A DNA stretch of 64,000 nucleotides from Candidatus Electrothrix scaldis (lineage in GTDB: Bacteria > Desulfobacterota > Desulfobulbia > Desulfobulbales > Desulfobulbaceae): positions 2,675,826 through 2,739,825 of the forward strand of contig CP138355.1 of assembly GCA_033584155.1 (NCBI GenBank), read 5' to 3'. Below are positions 21,000 to 28,542 of the stretch, piece after piece. Each line of letters starts with the position of its first letter. Within the stretch, counting starts at the first letter, position 1. The translations under genes and the position numbers were made by a program. Under the pieces are notes generated by a model. It was not told the origin of the DNA. It did no database searches and saw only the letters and a program-made list of their open reading frames with translations.

Positions 21000-23900
21000 T
21001 CAAAGCAGGAGAGAATAAATAGCAGGCAGGAAGGCTCTTGTATCCTGCGGGCTAATGCTCAATTCAAAGGAGCCCGCGTCACAGCCGTTTCCAACCGGGC
21101 GAGACTCACCACGTTGATCCAGCAACTCTTTTCCTGCTTCCTGAAGGGCACTGCAGGATGCGTCCAGATCCAGGGCCGGGCTCCCCGGAACCAGGGTATG
21201 GGTCATGGTTGGTCCACCGTTGTCGCCCAATGGGTGAAGAATAGCGGACTGAGCGGTCGGGATAAGGATACCATCAATGCCGCCATTGGTCGCATTGACA
21301 TCACTACTTCCAGGTATGAAGCCATAAAAGGCCTCTGCATTATTTTCACCACTGTGACCAAAGAGGTTATAGCTGTCTGCAACGATATTGCTGCTTTGAT
21401 AATTATAGACTTCATTACCGCCGTCAGAAGCTTGGTTCCCGCTAATAATCGAGCTAAATAATGTGGCCTTGTTCCAAGAATTATTGTAAATCCCTCCCCC
21501 AATGCCCTCTACCGAATTTTCACTGACTGTGGAGTTGGTCAGAGTAAGTGCTGTTGAGTTATAAATCCCCCCACCTTCTCCCAAGCTCCCTGATGTACTG
21601 TTGCCTGTGACTGTAGAGTTGGTTAAAAACATCACCCCACCACCATTATAAATTCCTCCCCCCCTCATGTCTGCCGAATTACCGCTGACTGTGGAATTGG
21701 TTATCGTGATCTGATTGCCTTTATTGTAAACCCCTCCTCCCACACCTGGCATCCCACCAGTATTATTACTACTGACCGTTGAGTCGATCAGAGTGACTGT
21801 GCCATTACTATTATTAAAAATACCCCCTCCAAAGTTGGCCCAGTTGTCTCTGATTGCAGAATGAGACAATGTAATACCCCCTACATTATAAATCCCACCA
21901 CCATATTGCTCGGTTGAATTACCGCTGACAGTAGAGCGGTTCAGAGTGACGGTACCACCATTGAAAATACCCCCGCCGAAGGGGGTGGAGAAGGAGAGCT
22001 TGCCGTCTTTGACTGTGGTTTCATTCAGCGTCAGGTTACCGGCACTGGTTACGTACAGCACACTGCCTATGCTTTCGTCTTTATTGCCGCTGATGAAATG
22101 TCCGTTACCCTCAATAGTAATGATGCTGCTGATCTGCGGCAGTGCAGCTTCAAGAGTGACATCCGTCTCCAGGATGATAGTATCAGCCCCGCAACCATCA
22201 GCACAGCCGTTTCCGTCGGCATCGTCATTATTGGCCGAATTAATAGCTTCGACCAAGGTACAGATACCGCCTGCATCCACAATAATATTTGATGTGCAAC
22301 TAATTTCAAACGAACCGGCATCGCACCCCTCTCCGACCGGACGAGGTTCACCTCGTTGATCTTCGGTTAGGCCGGTGCTGCATGTTGCATCTAAATCAAT
22401 GGCCGGGTTGCCTGCAACAAGGGCATGGGTCTTGGTCGGGCCGCCGTTGTCGGCCAAGGGGCTGAGGATAGCGGACAGGGCTGTCGGATTCGTACCGTCA
22501 CAGGTAGCAGTAGTATCGTTGAAACCGGGTGTAAAGCCTGCAATGGCTTGTACATCAGTAATGCCGCTGTGCCCAAAAAGGTTGTAGCTATTTGCAGTGA
22601 CGGTACTGCTACTGTCATTGTATATTTCGTTAGCGTGACCAGAAGCGGTTGCTGTGTTGCCGCTGACAATTGAACTCTTGAGCGTAAGTGCGGCTCCGCC
22701 TATGTTCTCAATCCCTCCACCGTTGCCACTGGTCAAGTTGTCGGTGATCGTGGAGTTGCTCATAATAACTTCCGCGCCCCAGTTCGCAATTCCGCCACCA
22801 CTACGGTATATACTTGACTCCGGTAATGTTACATTCCCGCTAACCGTAGAATTGGTCAAGGTAAGTGTAACTGGCAAATCCCCACCTTCAACATTTGCAA
22901 TTCCACCGGCAGCTGCATAACCGTTACTGCAAGATACTGAATTACCATTAACTGTAGATGCATCCATGATGAGGGTGCCACCAACTGACCATCCGTTCAC
23001 AATTCCCCCACCAAGGGCATACCCTCCTTGCTCGCTACATGATACTGAATTGCTGGTGATCGTAGAATTACTCAAAGAAGCTGTTGCTTCCTCTCCACCG
23101 TTTACAATCCCGCCACCAAGAGCATATCTTCCCGGCTCACTACATGATGCAGAGTTGTCGTTAACAAGAGAGTTGCTCAGGGTAAGAGACCCTTTGTTGT
23201 AAATCCCCCCGCCAACGGCGTCTGTTTCGCTATCCAGGCATGAGACAGAATTATTTTTTACTATGGAGTTTATGAGAGCAAGCTCTCCTTCATTGTTAAT
23301 TCCTCCTCCCCAAAAACTTTTCCCGCCCATAACTGTAGTGTTATACAGCGTCAGATTGCCGTCTGTGCCTATCCTTAACACGCTGCCAACAGCCGGGTCG
23401 TTGTTACCGTCAATTGTATGATCCTGGCCTTTGATAATAATTGAGGTGACAAGCTCCGGCAACGGGGTATCCAGAGTCACATCAGTCTCCAGGTATATGG
23501 TATCCTCGCCAGAACTAGCTGGGCAGCCGCCACTGCCCGTATCTGTGTTAGCCGCAGTGATGGCATCATGCAAGGTGCAGTTGCCGTTACTGTCCACCGT
23601 GATTGAACTGGTCGAATTACCCTCAACGGTAACCGTCGACGTTTCCATGCCGCTATTGCCATTGCTGTCCGTAGCCGTTAGAGTTACTGTATTCTCTCCG
23701 ATATCGGCACCAGTAAATTCGGATTTATCAATGGAAAGAGTTACGCCGCAAGCATCATGTGAACCGTTGTCGATATCGGCAGGCGTAATTGAAGCATGGC
23801 CGGAGGCGTCAAGCTGCACGGTGATGTCTTTGGTCAGAACTGTCGGAGCGATATTGTCCTCAAATACCGATATTGCGAGGGTTTCACTGTCAGACAGATT

Positions 23901-25598
23901 TCCCTGATCTCTTACCTCAATAACAGAGCTATAATCACCTGTTTGGCTGCATGTCGGTGTCCAGCTCAACACAGCCGTTCCGTCACCGTTATCCGCAAGC
24001 GATGCCCCTTGAGGTAAATTCAAGTTTTCAGTCGGATAATGAAGTGTGCCGTTATCTGGATCCGATGCTGTGATGTTTAGGGATAACAGCTCGCCTTCAG
24101 TCACTGTTTGCGGCTGTATCTCTGCTATTACCGGCACAAAGTTTTTTGCAAAAAAAGATAAATCCTGTCCGTCAACATCTCCGTCTGCATCAAGGTCCGC
24201 CCCGGTATTATACGTTGGGTCTCCTTGAACTGAACCGAATGCTCCTGACAGGAGAGCTAAATCATCACTGTCAACATCGCCATCGCCATCAATGTCCCCT
24301 AGGATATTGCTGAATTCAAACGAGCCGGCATCGCAACCGTTTCCGACCGGGCGGGGTTCGCCGCGCTGGTCTTCTTGCTGGTACCAAGGACGATCTGGGT
24401 CGGGATTATCCTCGGTGCCGCATGAAGTATCCAGATCAATAGCGGGGCTGCCCGGAACAAGGGCATGGGTCCCGTTGTCGGCCAAGCCCGATACAAGAAT
24501 AGAGGATAAGGGGGTAGGTTTACAGTTGTCTTTCTCGGTATCGCAATCTATGGCATTAGTGGTGGCATTTATATCGTTGGGGCTAGGAGAAAAATTATAA
24601 AAAGCATCATCATGGTCCTCGCCGCTGTGTCCGAAGAGGTTAGAGCTGTCCGCATTGATGTTTCCATCAAGATCGGAAGAACCATCATACTGTCTATAAA
24701 TTTCATTACCTTGATTAATAAGGGCTGTATTACCGCTGACAATGGAACTCTTCAGCGTAACGTAGTGATCCGCGCAGAAGAATGTAGATACGTTGTTGCA
24801 GGCTTCATAGTATATCCCGCCGCCTGTACTTTCAGCTATGTTGCCGCTAACAGTGACATTATTTAAGTTAAGTTTAGAATGCTTAGAATTGAAAATACCA
24901 CCGCCCTCGTCTGCTGAGTTGCCACTGATCGTAACGTTATTCAAAGTAGCACTGGTACTGTTGCCGGGACCACTAGGGTCGTCATTAAAGGAAAAGGAAA
25001 TTCCTCCACCATCACCTTCCGCAGTGTTTCCGCTAATTGTAACGTTGTTCAACGTAAGTTTACCGTTCGGAGAATTAAAAATCCCCCCGCCGTTACCTGC
25101 AGCAGTATTTTCAGTGACCGTAACATTATTCAGCGTGAGTTCGCCATTGCACGCATTGACAATTCCCCCGCCGTTACCCGGCATGTTTTCGTTATAGTAT
25201 GGATGGTTTCCACCGGTAATCGTAGCATTATTCAAGGTTAAGTCACCTCCAGAACAGGAGGGAGATTCTGTGCTTATTTTCAGCACATACCCAGTCTGAT
25301 CTTCATCAGCACCACCATCAATTATGTGACCATTGCCTTCAATAGTTATCTCGCTAAGAATCGGCGGTCGATTTATGTGTCCATCTTCAAGAATAACATC
25401 AGTCTCCAGATAGATAATGTCATCCCCGGAACCATCAACACAGCCGTTCCCGTCTGCATTATTATTATTGGCCGAGTCAATAGCTTCAGCCAAAGTGCAA
25501 ATTCCATCCGCATCTACAATAATATTAGCTGCAAATACCCAGTCTGGTGCCAGCATAAGCAATCCAAACAGCACCCCAAAATATGTTACTTTTTTCAT
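21000..25598 (-). CDS. very large secreted parallel beta-helix protein with dockerin-like and CSLREAI-type repeats
   Basis: 1532 residues. Signal peptide MKKVTYFGVLFGLLMLAPDW, cleaved near VFA. Three CSLREAI-type modules begin at about residues 24 (ICTLAEAIDSANNN), 663 (CTLHDAITAANTD) and 1103 (ICTLVEAINSANND); each is followed by right-handed beta-helix rungs with the recurring forms LTLNNVTVSGN and GGGIYN, and by a choice-of-anchor-Q-like end (THALVPGSPAIDLD, then DQRGEPRPVGNGCDAGSFE). At about 432-490 is a dockerin-like pair of calcium loops (DIDGDGDVDSDDLALLSG, DLDADGDVDGQDLSFFAK), then cadherin/HYR-like Ig domains. Probably a cell-surface or released adhesin. The coding sequence itself is highly repetitive. 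No sortase or T9SS tail recognised. Confidence 0.8.
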   Translation of the reverse strand: MKKVTYFGVLFGLLMLAPDWVFAANIIVDADGICTLAEAIDSANNNNADGNGCVDGSGDDIIYLETDVILEDGHINRPPILSEITIEGNGHIIDGGADEDQTGYVLKISTESPSCSGGDLTLNNATITGGNHPYYNENMPGNGGGIVNACNGELTLNNVTVTENTAAGNGGGIFNSPNGKLTLNNVTISGNTAEGDGGGISFSFNDDPSGPGNSTSATLNNVTISGNSADEGGGIFNSKHSKLNLNNVTVSGNIAESTGGGIYYEACNNVSTFFCADHYVTLKSSIVSGNTALINQGNEIYRQYDGSSDLDGNINADSSNLFGHSGEDHDDAFYNFSPSPNDINATTNAIDCDTEKDNCKPTPLSSILVSGLADNGTHALVPGSPAIDLDTSCGTEDNPDPDRPWYQQEDQRGEPRPVGNGCDAGSFEFSNILGDIDGDGDVDSDDLALLSGAFGSVQGDPTYNTGADLDADGDVDGQDLSFFAKNFVPVIAEIQPQTVTEGELLSLNITASDPDNGTLHYPTENLNLPQGASLADNGDGTAVLSWTPTCSQTGDYSSVIEVRDQGNLSDSETLAISVFEDNIAPTVLTKDITVQLDASGHASITPADIDNGSHDACGVTLSIDKSEFTGADIGENTVTLTATDSNGNSGMETSTVTVEGNSTSSITVDSNGNCTLHDAITAANTDTGSGGCPASSGEDTIYLETDVTLDTPLPELVTSIIIKGQDHTIDGNNDPAVGSVLRIGTDGNLTLYNTTVMGGKSFWGGGINNEGELALINSIVKNNSVSCLDSETDAVGGGIYNKGSLTLSNSLVNDNSASCSEPGRYALGGGIVNGGEEATASLSNSTITSNSVSCSEQGGYALGGGIVNGWSVGGTLIMDASTVNGNSVSCSNGYAAAGGIANVEGGDLPVTLTLTNSTVSGNVTLPESSIYRSGGGIANWGAEVIMSNSTITDNLTSGNGGGIENIGGAALTLKSSIVSGNTATASGHANEIYNDSSSTVTANSYNLFGHSGITDVQAIAGFTPGFNDTTATCDGTNPTALSAILSPLADNGGPTKTHALVAGNPAIDLDATCSTGLTEDQRGEPRPVGEGCDAGSFEISCTSNIIVDAGGICTLVEAINSANNDDADGNGCADGCGADTIILETDVTLEAALPQISSIITIEGNGHFISGNKDESIGSVLYVTSAGNLTLNETTVKDGKLSFSTPFGGGIFNGGTVTLNRSTVSGNSTEQYGGGIYNVGGITLSHSAIRDNWANFGGGIFNNSNGTVTLIDSTVSSNNTGGMPGVGGGVYNKGNQITITNSTVSGNSADMRGGGIYNGGGVMFLTNSTVTGNSTSGSLGEGGGIYNSTALTLTNSTVSENSVEGIGGGIYNNSWNKATLFSSIISGNQASDGGNEVYNYQSSNIVADSYNLFGHSGENNAEAFYGFIPGSSDVNATNGGIDGILIPTAQSAILHPLGDNGGPTMTHTLVPGSPALDLDASCSALQEAGKELLDQRGESRPVGNGCDAGSFELSISPQDTRAFLPAIYSLLL

Positions 25599-25997: not shown

Positions 25998-26014
25998 TTG
26001 GCATAGTCTCTGCA
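25998..26014 (+). promoter_or_regulatory. sigma-54-type (-24/-12) promoter
   Basis: TTGGCATAGTCTCTGCA: GG at 26000-26001 and GC at 26012-26013 are separated by exactly ten bases, and flanks match TTGGCA and the TGCA side of the RpoN consensus. It lies 28 bases before the first structured leader and points at the envelope operon. Sequence match is seen; RpoN use is inferred. Confidence 0.6.
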
Positions 26015-26041: not shown

Positions 26042-26180
26042 AACCAAGCGGGTTCAAAGCTTTCTGGTCAACGTCGATCAAGGGAGTCGACACAAGAAAC
26101 TTGAAAACAGCCACAGCCGTCGTGAGGCGGTGTCGGAAAGCCACGGGTCTCATGGAGAGATAGCCGGGTTGCCTGCTTCT
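26042..26180 (+). promoter_or_regulatory. structured RNA leader, copy 1 (GEMM-like 3' half)
   Basis: About 140 nt, homologous to 27711-27850. Elements in order: a hairpin with ACCA/TGGT and AGC/GCT; a stem GTCGA (26073-26077) with TCGAC (26087-26091); CAAG-AAA-CTTG; a stem GCCGTC-GTGA-GGCGGT with a GNRA tetraloop; then GGAAAGCCACGGGTCTC and GATAGCCGGGTTGCC. The last part strongly resembles the 3' half of c-di-GMP-I (GEMM) riboswitches, and the GNRA hairpin fits P1, but the usual GACGCAAAG is GTCGGAAAG here and the 5' strand differs. So it is either a divergent GEMM or a different RNA with the same core. Ends 21 bases before the ATG. Confidence 0.6.
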
Positions 26181-26201
26181 GCTATAATCAGGAGGAGTTC
26201 T

Positions 26202-27059
26202 ATGAAAACTCACGGAGGATTACACACACACAGAGGACTGATTGCATTAACCGGTGCGTTTTTTGCTGCTTTTGCCCTTTCCGGGTGCGGCCACGAAAAA
26301 CCGATTGATCCGCAGGCCGAGCTCCTGCCAGAACAAAACATCGAGCGTGCTTTCCAGAAACAAGAAACCTTAACAGCCGGACGCACCTTTATTGCTCCGG
26401 TATTGCGGGAGTCAGCACCTGCTGAAGAAATCCATTTGGATCCGCCAACTCCCGTTGCCCCCCCCAAGGCAGAGACCGAGTTAACACTCTCTGCACCTCA
26501 TCCGAGCCAGTGCTGGATGGGCGACGTCACAAACCCGCTCCGCGAAGTCGTCACCTCACTGGAAGAGCAGTCACTGCTGTATAACACAGGCCCTCTGACA
26601 GACTGCTCCGGCATTTTTCATCGCGTTCTTCAGGGACTGAAAGAGCAATGCCCAGGCCGGGACTTCCCCACCGTAGAAAAAGACAGAGATTCCCGCGCAC
26701 TCGCCCGTTGGTACCATGAACGAGGCAAATTACAACTTATCGATAACGCAGAAGAAAGTGCGGCCCTTCTCAAACCAGGAGCCATCATCTTCTTTGGTCG
26801 CAACGGTTCCGTGTACGAGGACTTCTCCGTCGATGATCTGCTGACCCCGCGTAAAGGCATTGCCCATCTCGGCGTTGTGGTCAAGGTCCATAAAGACAAA
26901 TCCGGCAAAGTGCTCCATTACGAGCTGTTTCACGGATACGGCAGAAAAGGGATAACCGCAGCTTCTGTCACTGATTGGCATAAACGAACCCCGACCAGAA
27001 ACGGCTACCCGCCTTTTGGTAATGGTCGCCAGCAATGGGTCGCGGTTGCCCGCATCTGA
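26202..27059 (+). CDS. NlpC/P60-like lipoprotein, probable cell-wall peptidase
   Basis: 285 residues. Lipoprotein signal MKTHGGLHTHRGLIALTGAF with lipobox ALSGC. The C-terminal half has the NlpC/P60 order: Cys in LTDCSGIFHRVLQG, then a His in GIAHLGVVVKVHKD, the catalytic pair of a Cys/His peptidase that cuts peptidoglycan stem peptides. A proline-rich linker (PPTPVAPPKAE) joins the two. ATG 26202 has AGGAGGAG just upstream; the longer frame from 26130 only translates the leader RNA. Genes after it encode a DUF882 peptidase and a CAP-domain lipoprotein, so an envelope-remodelling operon is likely. Its signal sequence resembles that of the CAP protein. Confidence 0.75.
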   Translation: MKTHGGLHTHRGLIALTGAFFAAFALSGCGHEKPIDPQAELLPEQNIERAFQKQETLTAGRTFIAPVLRESAPAEEIHLDPPTPVAPPKAETELTLSAPHPSQCWMGDVTNPLREVVTSLEEQSLLYNTGPLTDCSGIFHRVLQGLKEQCPGRDFPTVEKDRDSRALARWYHERGKLQLIDNAEESAALLKPGAIIFFGRNGSVYEDFSVDDLLTPRKGIAHLGVVVKVHKDKSGKVLHYELFHGYGRKGITAASVTDWHKRTPTRNGYPPFGNGRQQWVAVARI

Positions 27060-27092
27060 TCTCAAGCAGGAAATAACTCAGGAGAGGAAATC

Positions 27093-27653
27093 ATGAAACG
27101 CCGATCTTTTCTGCTCTTAGGAGCCAAAACAGCTGCCGGTATCCTGCTGGCGCAGGCAACCCCGGTATGGGCAGGTATTGCCCGAATATCTGGAGTCACA
27201 GAAGAAAGTACATCAAGAACCCTGTCATTCTATCATACCCACACCCGTGAGCAGCTGGATATTACCTACGCCATTGGTGAGACCTATAACCAGGAGGCCT
27301 TAGATGCACTCAACCTCTATCTGCGGGATTTCCGCACCGCTGAAGTCCATCCTATTGATCCGGCCTTACTGGATATCCTTTGGACTATCCAGCAAAAAAT
27401 GGGCTGCACTAGCTGCTATGAGGTTATCTCAGGTTATAGGTCTCCAGCAACAAACAGCCAACTGCGCAGCAAAAGTAAGGGTGTTGCCAAGCGTAGCCTG
27501 CATATGCAAGGCATGGCCATTGATGTGCGGTTAACAGGTCAGCAAACCAACGAGCTGCGGGACTGTGCGATTTCGCTCAAGGCCGGAGGCGTGGGCTATT
27601 ACGCTGCTTCCGATTTTGTCCACATCGACACAGGTCGGGTACGTACCTGGTAA
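27093..27653 (+). CDS. DUF882/YcbK-family (M15-type) murein endopeptidase
   Basis: 186 residues beginning MKRRSFLLLGAKTAAGILLA, a twin-arginine-like export signal. The M15/DUF882 metal site is visible as SGYRSPATNSQLR, SLHMQGMAIDVRL (His and Asp ligands) and the late YYAASDFVHIDTGRVRTW (His ligand, typical end). E. coli YcbK/MepK cuts meso-DAP cross-links. Ribosome site AGGAGAGG before ATG 27093, 33 bases after the NlpC/P60-like gene, so same operon. Length is normal for the family. Confidence 0.88.
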   Translation: MKRRSFLLLGAKTAAGILLAQATPVWAGIARISGVTEESTSRTLSFYHTHTREQLDITYAIGETYNQEALDALNLYLRDFRTAEVHPIDPALLDILWTIQQKMGCTSCYEVISGYRSPATNSQLRSKSKGVAKRSLHMQGMAIDVRLTGQQTNELRDCAISLKAGGVGYYAASDFVHIDTGRVRTW

Positions 27654-27710
27654 TGTTGCCCCAGAGAAGAGAAGAAGAAAGCAAAGAACGAACAAAGCAA
27701 GACAGCTTTC

Positions 27711-27850
27711 AACCAAGCGGGTGCAAAGCTTCTGGTCAGAGCCGGACAAGGATGTTCCGGCTCAGGAAACTTGAACACAGCCACAGCCGTCGCGAGGCGG
27801 TGTCGGAAAGCCACGGGTCTCTACAGGAGAGATAGCCGGGCCGCCTGCTT
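27711..27850 (+). promoter_or_regulatory. structured RNA leader, copy 2 (GEMM-like 3' half)
   Basis: Second copy of the leader at 26042-26180, inside the same operon between the DUF882 gene and the CAP gene. The second stem has changed on both sides: GAGCCGGA (27739-27746) pairs with TCCGGCTC (27756-27763), where copy 1 has GTCGA/TCGAC; the loop keeps CAAGG. The GNRA loop is GCGA instead of GTGA. The block GGAAAGCCACGGGTCTC is identical. Paired changes support a conserved RNA structure. No promoter of its own is obvious, so it likely acts on read-through transcript. Confidence 0.6.
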
Positions 27851-27870
27851 CTCACACCAGGAGGAGAATC

Positions 27871-28542
27871 ATGAAAACACAACAAAGAGGAACAAACCAA
27901 CACAGAGGATTGATCACACTGACGACTACCGCCTTTTTGGCCGCTGCTGTCCTGACAGCTGGATGCGTTAACACAGGAAACACAGGAAGCACAGGGACTA
28001 CAGGAGCAAGTGGACCACTATCAAGACATAACATTCTGTCCGCTGGACAAAGCGAAGTCTCACTCCAGCAGAACGAGCGTCACTCAGGTGGGGAAAATCT
28101 GATTAATCCAGCGGCCATCACAGCAGAACATAATCGCTGGCGTTCTCAAGTCGGTGTCCCTGAGCTTAGGTGGTCAGACAAACTGGCCAATGCAGCACAG
28201 GACTGGGCTGACACCCTGAAAGAAAAGGGCTGCGGATTTTACCACAGCAATAACGGCTACGGGGAAAATCTCTTTATGTCCAGCGCACGGATCCGGTCTG
28301 ACGGTACCAGAGAAGTGATGGATGTCAAACCGCAGGATGCTGTTGATAGTTGGGGAAATGAAAGCAGGGATTATAACTATGCAGAAAACAGCTGCTCTGG
28401 TGTCTGTGGTCATTACACCCAGGTGGTCTGGAAAGAGACCCAGGAAGTGGGTTGCGCCAAAACGGTCTGTGATGACAAGTCCCAGGTCTGGGTTTGCAGT
28501 TACGCACCAGCTGGAAATCGTATCGGCAAAAGACCCTATTGA
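27871..28542 (+). CDS. CAP-domain (SCP/PR-1) lipoprotein
   Basis: 223 residues. Lipoprotein signal with lipobox LTAGC after MKTQQRGTNQHRGLITLTTT, then a Gly/Thr-rich linker (NTGNTGSTGTTGAS), then a CAP domain: AEHNRWRSQVGVPELRWSDK, YGENLFM, CGHYTQVVWKE and the end WVCSYAPAGN, with His/Glu/His cavity residues. CAP proteins bind lipids or act on the envelope; bacterial function is often unclear. AGGAGGAG precedes ATG 27871. Its first 30 residues resemble those of the NlpC/P60-like lipoprotein, as does its RNA leader. Confidence 0.88.
   Translation: MKTQQRGTNQHRGLITLTTTAFLAAAVLTAGCVNTGNTGSTGTTGASGPLSRHNILSAGQSEVSLQQNERHSGGENLINPAAITAEHNRWRSQVGVPELRWSDKLANAAQDWADTLKEKGCGFYHSNNGYGENLFMSSARIRSDGTREVMDVKPQDAVDSWGNESRDYNYAENSCSGVCGHYTQVVWKETQEVGCAKTVCDDKSQVWVCSYAPAGNRIGKRPY

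Follow-up and report, generated by a model that had tools for sequence, protein, structure and literature searches.

The expression platform of a riboswitch is normally sought downstream of its aptamer. For Vc2, a cyclic dimeric guanosine monophosphate (c-di-GMP)-I or GEMM riboswitch, the ligand contacts G20, A47 and C92 are named in PMC4744006 and PMC11218506, and PMC4744006 also describes an interhelical C-G pair. Helix P1 is reported to be crucial for ligand binding in Vc2 and not in Cd1 (PMC9262584). In PMC4744006, Vc1 is presented as having no terminator or anti-Shine-Dalgarno (anti-SD) sequence apparent between aptamer and gene. Here we analyze two leaders, each preceding a lipoprotein gene, in a stretch of 64,000 nucleotides from Candidatus (Ca.) Electrothrix scaldis (contig CP138355.1, positions 2,675,826 to 2,739,825 of the forward strand; hereafter the window, whose own coordinates are used throughout). 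Our data suggest that both leaders are c-di-GMP-I riboswitches with an expression platform 5' of the aptamer, acting as translational OFF switches, a reading to which we assign a probability of roughly 0.68. The nearest named relatives of the window are Ca. Electrothrix and Ca. Electronema (Desulfobulbaceae). These are cable bacteria, which are multicellular and dwell in sediment.

Scanning the window with all of Rfam 15 returned only two matches above gathering, both to RF01051:

26100 to 26176, + strand: c-di-GMP-I aptamer, copy 1 (RF01051, 53.8 bits against a gathering threshold of 35, E 1e-7; contact equivalents G26110, A26137 and C26172)
27770 to 27848, + strand: c-di-GMP-I aptamer, copy 2 (RF01051, 47.7 bits against the same threshold of 35, E 3.1e-6; contact equivalents G27780, A27807 and C27844)

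Families apart from c-di-GMP-I and its variants gave only chance-level matches (E at least 0.3). The equivalents of G20, A47 and C92 (Vc2 numbering) are G, A and C in both copies, and the P2 tetraloop is GUGA in copy 1 and GCGA in copy 2. The Watson-Crick C-G pair that joins P2 and P3 is kept in both, as it is in 123 of 123 parsed copies of the enlarged family described below. By these sequence features both leaders are c-di-GMP-I riboswitches, with c-di-GMP as the predicted ligand. An earlier interpretation made from the letters of this DNA (the sequence-only reading) had already located the two leaders of about 140 nucleotides and pointed out their GNRA loops, an identical 3' core and a resemblance to GEMM, and each of these observations holds; the leaders align over their full length at 80% identity.

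Directly 5' of most aptamers in this genome lies a hairpin, P0 (CUUUCYGG...CCRGAAAG). Its 3' arm continues into the 5' strand of P1 (GGAAAGUUG paired with CCURCUUU). Its 5' arm (CUUUCYGG) is complementary to that 3' arm and also to the SD beyond the aptamer, as in the arm/SD combinations CUUUCCGAU/AUCGGAGAG (L018), ACUUUCCGGUC/GAUCGGGAAGU (L006) and ACUUUCUGG/CCAGGAGGU (L008). The genome (5.09 Mb, single contig) contains 19 c-di-GMP-I aptamers by RF01051 scan and 17 GGDEF matches. The P0/anti-SD arrangement accompanies 15 of the 19 aptamers; L014 does not have it, and the tandem-array aptamers L001, L002 and L004 have terminators in its place. Within the window, its elements are:

26046 to 26052, + strand: possible anti-P1 strand AAGCGGG, copy 1 (tentative; complementary to CCUGCUU at 26172-26178)
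26060 to 26068, + strand: anti-SD and P0 5' arm, copy 1 (CUUUCUGGU; 9 pairs with 26187-26195, supported by the family swap test)
26073 to 26091, + strand: P0 inner hairpin, copy 1 (GUCGA/UCGAC; compensated in copy 2 and in related leaders)
26095 to 26103, + strand: P0 3' arm and P1 5' strand, copy 1 (AGAAACUUG; placed by alignment, P1 being weak here)
26187 to 26195, + strand: SD segment that pairs with the anti-SD, copy 1 (AUCAGGAGG; from sequence and pairing)
27715 to 27721, + strand: possible anti-P1 strand AAGCGGG, copy 2 (from sequence)
27729 to 27736, + strand: anti-SD and P0 5' arm, copy 2 (CUUCUGGU; 8 pairs with 27856-27863, -12.0 kcal/mol)
27739 to 27763, + strand: P0 inner hairpin, copy 2 (GAGCCGGA/UCCGGCUC; from sequence and alignment)
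27856 to 27863, + strand: SD segment that pairs with the anti-SD, copy 2 (ACCAGGAG; from sequence and pairing)

The sequence-only reading had correctly described the inner stem as changed on both strands (GUCGA/UCGAC at 26073-26091 against GAGCCGGA/UCCGGCUC at 27739-27763), and related leaders carry other paired letters there. Absent from it were the upstream anti-SD arrangement, the apparent switching role of the leader 5' of the aptamer, and a MepK-type gene between the leaders.

In the proposed mechanism, P0 (CUUUCYGG/CCRGAAAG) would form in the absence of ligand and leave the SD accessible to the ribosome. With c-di-GMP, P1 of the aptamer would take the 3' arm of P0; the freed 5' arm would then pair with the SD across the aptamer, extending P1, and translation would stop. 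Mutual exclusion is partial, with P0 excluding both P1 and the anti-SD:SD duplex. Each lipoprotein cistron would have one such switch, probably inside one operon.

Coupling between arm and SD was assessed with a register-free swap test, in which the energy of the duplex between an upstream arm and its own SD was compared with that of the same arm paired to the SDs of other copies. The starting sites numbered 62 (19 from the genome itself and 43 pattern sites), of which 54 were used in the first tests; L029 (near a contig end), L001, L002, L004 and L041 (unparsed), and L025, L028 and L039 (no start found) were left out. Own combinations scored -11.28 against -10.01 when swapped (0 of 2000 as low), and an unrestricted upstream stretch was coupled to the SD as well (z -3.6; 1 of 2000). 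The 16 diverged paralogues of the genome alone gave p 0.003 for arm and SD. Adding 84 further loci, 15 of them unparsed, yielded 123 copies, or 76 non-redundant ones after those more than 0.92 alike were dropped. Across these 76, the energies were -11.20 kcal/mol for own and -9.91 kcal/mol for swapped partners (z -5.6; 0 of 5000). The two arms of P0 were coupled to a similar extent (z -5.5), and a control in which the 3' arm was set against the SD was null (z -0.1).

The pairing itself comprises 7 to 13 base pairs in 74 of the 76 copies, with compensation at individual positions (U-A to C-G in seven sequences, and A-U replacing G-C at another pair in two). Insertions are matched in L038 and L054, where an extra U in the arm accompanies an extra G in the SD. 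The leader SDs are themselves unusual: 44 of their 76 windows contain [CT]C[AG]GG, compared with 5 of 117 from other genes, and leader SDs are often extended to CCAGGAGG-like forms. In a MAFFT alignment, 95.1% of cells in the anti-SD helix were paired; for the whole structure the value was 95.3%, against 38-54% with slid 3' partners.

Folding proxies were computed for 73 of these copies (L005, L049 and L157 being lost) with P1 and the aptamer favored as a stand-in for the bound state, with P1 softly penalized, or without constraint. Mean anti-SD:SD pairing was 0.73, 0.13 and 0.25, respectively, and mean P0 pairing 0.03, 0.71 and 0.58. In the bound proxy, 45 of 73 copies lost more than 0.1 in SD openness and 5 had a more open SD, and from this closing of the SD a translational OFF switch is predicted. 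For the window copies, favoring P1 in the folding model raised anti-SD:SD pairing from 0.00 to 0.63 (copy 1) and from 0.01 to 0.75 (copy 2). Folding and coupling agree in suggesting that the SD would be sequestered in the ligand-bound state.

Several results weigh against this interpretation. Unconstrained folding formed the anti-SD:SD duplex in neither window copy (0.00 and 0.01), and favoring P1 left SD openness almost as it was in copy 1 (0.27 to 0.23) and lowered it a little in copy 2 (0.37 to 0.22). P1 is weak in both window copies, where its pair set is broken; over alignment A1 (51 rows, with L014, L021 and L045 omitted), 90.5% of P1 cells are paired. The strands of P1 showed no coupling in the 76 copies (z -0.4), because they hardly vary; P1 covariation was considered as support and set aside. 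For the leader family to which the window copies belong (n=11), own and swapped partners did not differ significantly (p 0.30), as these copies are alike, and for the window copies taken alone, support for the anti-SD comes mainly from the wider family. Pair counting on the MAFFT alignment was weak, with shuffles reaching as many double-change pairs over the full structure in 391 of 500 cases and changes on both sides in only 1 of 7 anti-SD pairs. This is due in part to misalignment of the P0 loop, and the case for the anti-SD therefore rests on the own-versus-swapped coupling, the matched insertions and the unusual leader SDs. In addition, the copies share descent, so that swaps are not independent trials, and the upstream arm was located through a CUUUC-like motif, partly from a hand list and partly through its complementarity to the 3' arm; this biases absolute complementarity while leaving the own-versus-swapped comparison unaffected.

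Each of the 12 Electrothrix and Electronema genomes (one genus label, Electronema, was assigned by us) was hit at E ≤1e-6 by a covariance model of the anti-SD, P1, aptamer and SD (R1), for 159 matches in total, with 9-28 per Electrothrix and 1-4 per Electronema genome. Five of the R1 matches listed scored below 86 bits. Among up to 12 candidates scored per genome in 257 genomes of the order (including the 12 of the two genera), the top match outside both genera reached 81.5 bits. Among 8 candidates scored per genome in 395 genomes sampled across the phylum, the top match outside the window's own genome reached 78.5 bits; 19 genomes of this sample had an R1 match, and no other cable-bacterium genome was among them. 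We examined 48 outside loci, which were the best-scoring matches rather than a random sample. Six were unparsed, and the remaining 42 represent 40 places (L075/L108 and L085/L119 being the same). In 35 of the 42, the 95 bases after the aptamer contain a hairpin and U run resembling a terminator, often GGYARYCCGGC-UUUUU, repeating the complement of the aptamer 3' strand. Such a hairpin was seen in 3 of the 76 cable copies (L009, L173 and L177), a count that late terminators could escape, as the sequence taken at some of these loci stops about 30 bases beyond the start. Seven outside loci were without a terminator by this rule, and the five of these with a usable start gave -13.2 for own and -12.0 for swapped upstream and SD partners, a difference short of significance (p 0.16). 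The simplest history would be that the cable line exchanged a terminator platform for an upstream anti-SD and that the unit multiplied afterwards.

The same parts could instead work with the opposite sign or at another level. P0 would again compete with P1, and c-di-GMP would raise expression, for example by breaking an apo-state AAGCGGG:CCUGCUU pairing or through mRNA stability. The 3' strand of P1 has a complement in the upstream stretch AAGCRGGU, and AAGCRGG is weakly coupled to that strand in the 76 copies (z -2.5, p 0.007), so that it may, tentatively, serve as an anti-P1 strand. The SD becomes more open in the bound proxy of 5 of 73 copies, with a mean unconstrained openness of just 25%, and the relatives in which a downstream terminator draws on the aptamer 3' strand look like transcriptional ON switches. 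We nevertheless regard an ON switch as unlikely here, since the bound proxy closes the SD in 45 of 73 copies and anti-SD:SD coupling exceeds that of the anti-P1 stretch.

A plainer view holds that these are ordinary c-di-GMP-I riboswitches in which P0 is a stabilizing or spacer hairpin and complementarity to the SD is a by-product of a pyrimidine-rich arm facing purine-rich SDs. Any CUUUC arm does pair to some degree with GGAGG, and across 117 SDs of other genes the arms reached a mean of -6.1 kcal/mol, against -11.2 with their own. The lack of significant coupling within the window family fits this view too. The own-versus-swapped difference (z -5.6) with its null control, the matched insertions and the frequent CCAGGAGG-like extension of leader SDs make it improbable, and favor the upstream anti-SD.

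The remaining question concerns the aptamer core, which reads GUCGG in the window against GACGC in textbook GEMM. The first of these two changes is at the Vc2 pair 21-46, where C-G replaces G-C with both strands altered in compensation. All 123 parsed copies from cable bacteria carry this swap, as do many other Desulfobulbales copies that we read. The second is in the P2 internal loop, with ACA/GUC for AAA/GAC, and recurs in 122 of 123 cable copies; GUC-type cores occur outside the order too, at two loci (L200 and L202). A at position 20, the mark of GEMM-I aptamers selective for cyclic GMP-AMP (cGAMP), is replaced by G26110 and G27780 in the window. Scores against the Rfam variant models fell below threshold (c-di-GMP-I-UAU, copy 1, 61.1 bits against 65.9; c-di-GMP-I-GGC, copy 2, 47.2 bits against 59). 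The sequence-only reading had taken these unfamiliar core letters as a sign of another ligand or a new class, and A20 or U92, at positions of ligand choice, do occur in 13 of 123 relatives and in neither window copy; given the RF01051 scores, the intact G20-A47-C92 set, the sub-threshold variant scores and a swap that is widespread in the order and also carried by a GEMM-I relative of solved structure (the Geobacter 3',3'-cGAMP riboswitch, with C15-G40 at this position; PMC6274999), we reject that proposal as very improbable. A plain GEMM match with all contact bases present was also the outcome that the sequence-only reading, in proposing a check against RF01051, had named as speaking against itself.

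The genes around the leaders, together with a promoter-like element, are:

25999 to 26014, + strand: sigma-54-like promoter element (GG-N10-GC; from sequence, with a similar site seen by eye in four orthologous NlpC-type leaders)
26202 to 27059, + strand: lipoprotein of 285 amino acids with an NlpC/P60-like domain (from invariant Cys and His and weak fold matches, without a Pfam or NCBIfam match)
27093 to 27653, + strand: MepK-type peptidoglycan endopeptidase, between the leaders (NF053624, 206.5 bits against a cut-off of 185; PF05951)
27871 to 28542, + strand: lipoprotein of 223 amino acids with a CAP domain (PF00188, E 1.5e-25)

The assignment of the second lipoprotein to CAP in the sequence-only reading was borne out by PF00188. 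For the first, a putative NlpC/P60 domain is suggested by C135, H222 and H244, which are invariant in five orthologues, and by weak VIA-align matches of its structural model (pLDDT 54; Z 7.4-8.0), which include NlpC/P60 and autolysin domains, the best (8.0) being an autolysin domain. Pfam and NCBIfam gave no match to this protein, Foldseek gave none to the model at E ≤0.001, and sequence comparison with solved structures gave chance matches only (E at least 1.2). The two lipoproteins share an N-terminal signal that is real though loose (MKT...HRGLI.LT..), in support of the earlier idea of a leader-plus-signal cassette placed ahead of different domains. That this cassette was duplicated is plausible; the leader tree gave no clear branching from which to read the orthology of the two leaders or the timing of duplication. 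S24.Bin023 (L023) and Ca. E. gigas (L051) have the same NlpC-then-CAP order with two leaders and leave no space for an intervening gene. At 95% identity, the leader pair of S24.Bin023 hints at a duplication or conversion event of recent date.

The second leader starts within about 60 bases after the MepK-type gene. GG-N10-GC, which we take to be a sigma-54 motif, lies ahead of the first leader, and inspection by eye showed no such element ahead of the second, so a single operon carrying two riboswitches is likely. Such an arrangement would suit translational control rather than termination. The sigma-54-like pattern precedes 3 of 73 leaders, compared with 29 of 2879 background windows, and is therefore not general among them. 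On the opposite strand just upstream (21000-25598, -) is an open reading frame of 1532 amino acids whose start resembles a signal and in which repeats of the SGN..GGGI type recur.

Elsewhere in the family, many leaders run into short open reading frames with similar starts (M-S/R/K-x-L-F...), among them L012, L024, L030, L032, L046, L048, L056 and L058, and some have a longer gene further downstream. These short frames are perhaps leader peptides or parts of a dispersed leader cassette. At L041 (near 5714), the 3' half of the aptamer and the SD are intact, and unrelated sequence replaces the 5' half and P0.

Changes at ligand positions were found in a few copies, with A20 in 4 and U92 in 9 of 123 (some places being counted twice). 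These include L011 (also L040, L096 and L147) and L015 (also L031, L034 and L150). The small secreted proteins encoded behind L011 (A20) and L015 (U92) are homologues, 39% identical over 95 amino acids. Going by sequence, an A20 or U92 change could favor cGAMP. Against a simple rule, the homologue at L036 carries G20 and C92, and U92 is seen in two CAP leaders of Electronema.

The three tandem aptamers L001, L002 and L004 (G000:C1:4046050-4046395) are 133 bp apart, and behind each comes a hairpin that resembles a terminator and has a U run. The array sits before an Hcp gene (PF05638) and a VgrG-like gene with a Phage_GPD (baseplate hub) domain, an arrangement in which c-di-GMP may govern a type VI secretion operon. 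A triple-tandem c-di-GMP riboswitch is known in Bacillus thuringiensis (PMC4759541).

Our results suggest a known sensor, the c-di-GMP-I aptamer, in a new platform arrangement, the upstream anti-SD, and point to a large translational network under c-di-GMP in cable bacteria. A broader scheme, which we offer as tentative, is that the output in these organisms moved ahead of the sensor, with P1, once ligand drives its formation, pulling the 3' arm out of a P0 that had folded earlier and leaving the 5' arm to lock an SD about 120 nucleotides downstream, and that the unit multiplied to as many as 28 model matches per Electrothrix genome, giving wide c-di-GMP control of secreted proteins with a few copies retuned to cGAMP through A20 or U92 ahead of some genes, including those for the two homologous small secreted proteins. 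We found no report of an upstream platform or anti-SD arrangement, and no riboswitch paper on cable bacteria, among the papers listed in our literature searches, which covered few subscription papers. An anti-SD ahead of the aptamer might explain orphan cases such as Vc1, for which it offers a simple test.

The primary Vc2 paper (Inuzuka 2018), by its title, is said to concern masking of a ribosome-binding site far from the aptamer. Like the proposed switch, Vc2 (tfoY, Vibrio cholerae) is a translational OFF switch with P1 as a key element (PMC9262584, PMC7371385). With RF01051 GEMM-I in general, the window copies share the aptamer, contact positions, P2 GNRA loop, P3 and interhelical C-G pair; they differ in the 21-46 C-G pair, the ACA/GUC loop, the weak P1 and a platform placed 5' of the aptamer. 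The Geobacter 3',3'-cGAMP riboswitch has the same C-G pair as the window copies (C15-G40) and differs at position 20, where its A14 stands against G. Finally, the terminator-type c-di-GMP-I riboswitches of Thermodesulfobacteriota, including the triple tandem of this genome, are close in aptamer sequence and in many cases carry the C-G swap, but place a terminator-like hairpin after the aptamer, in contrast to the upstream anti-SD of the cable copies.

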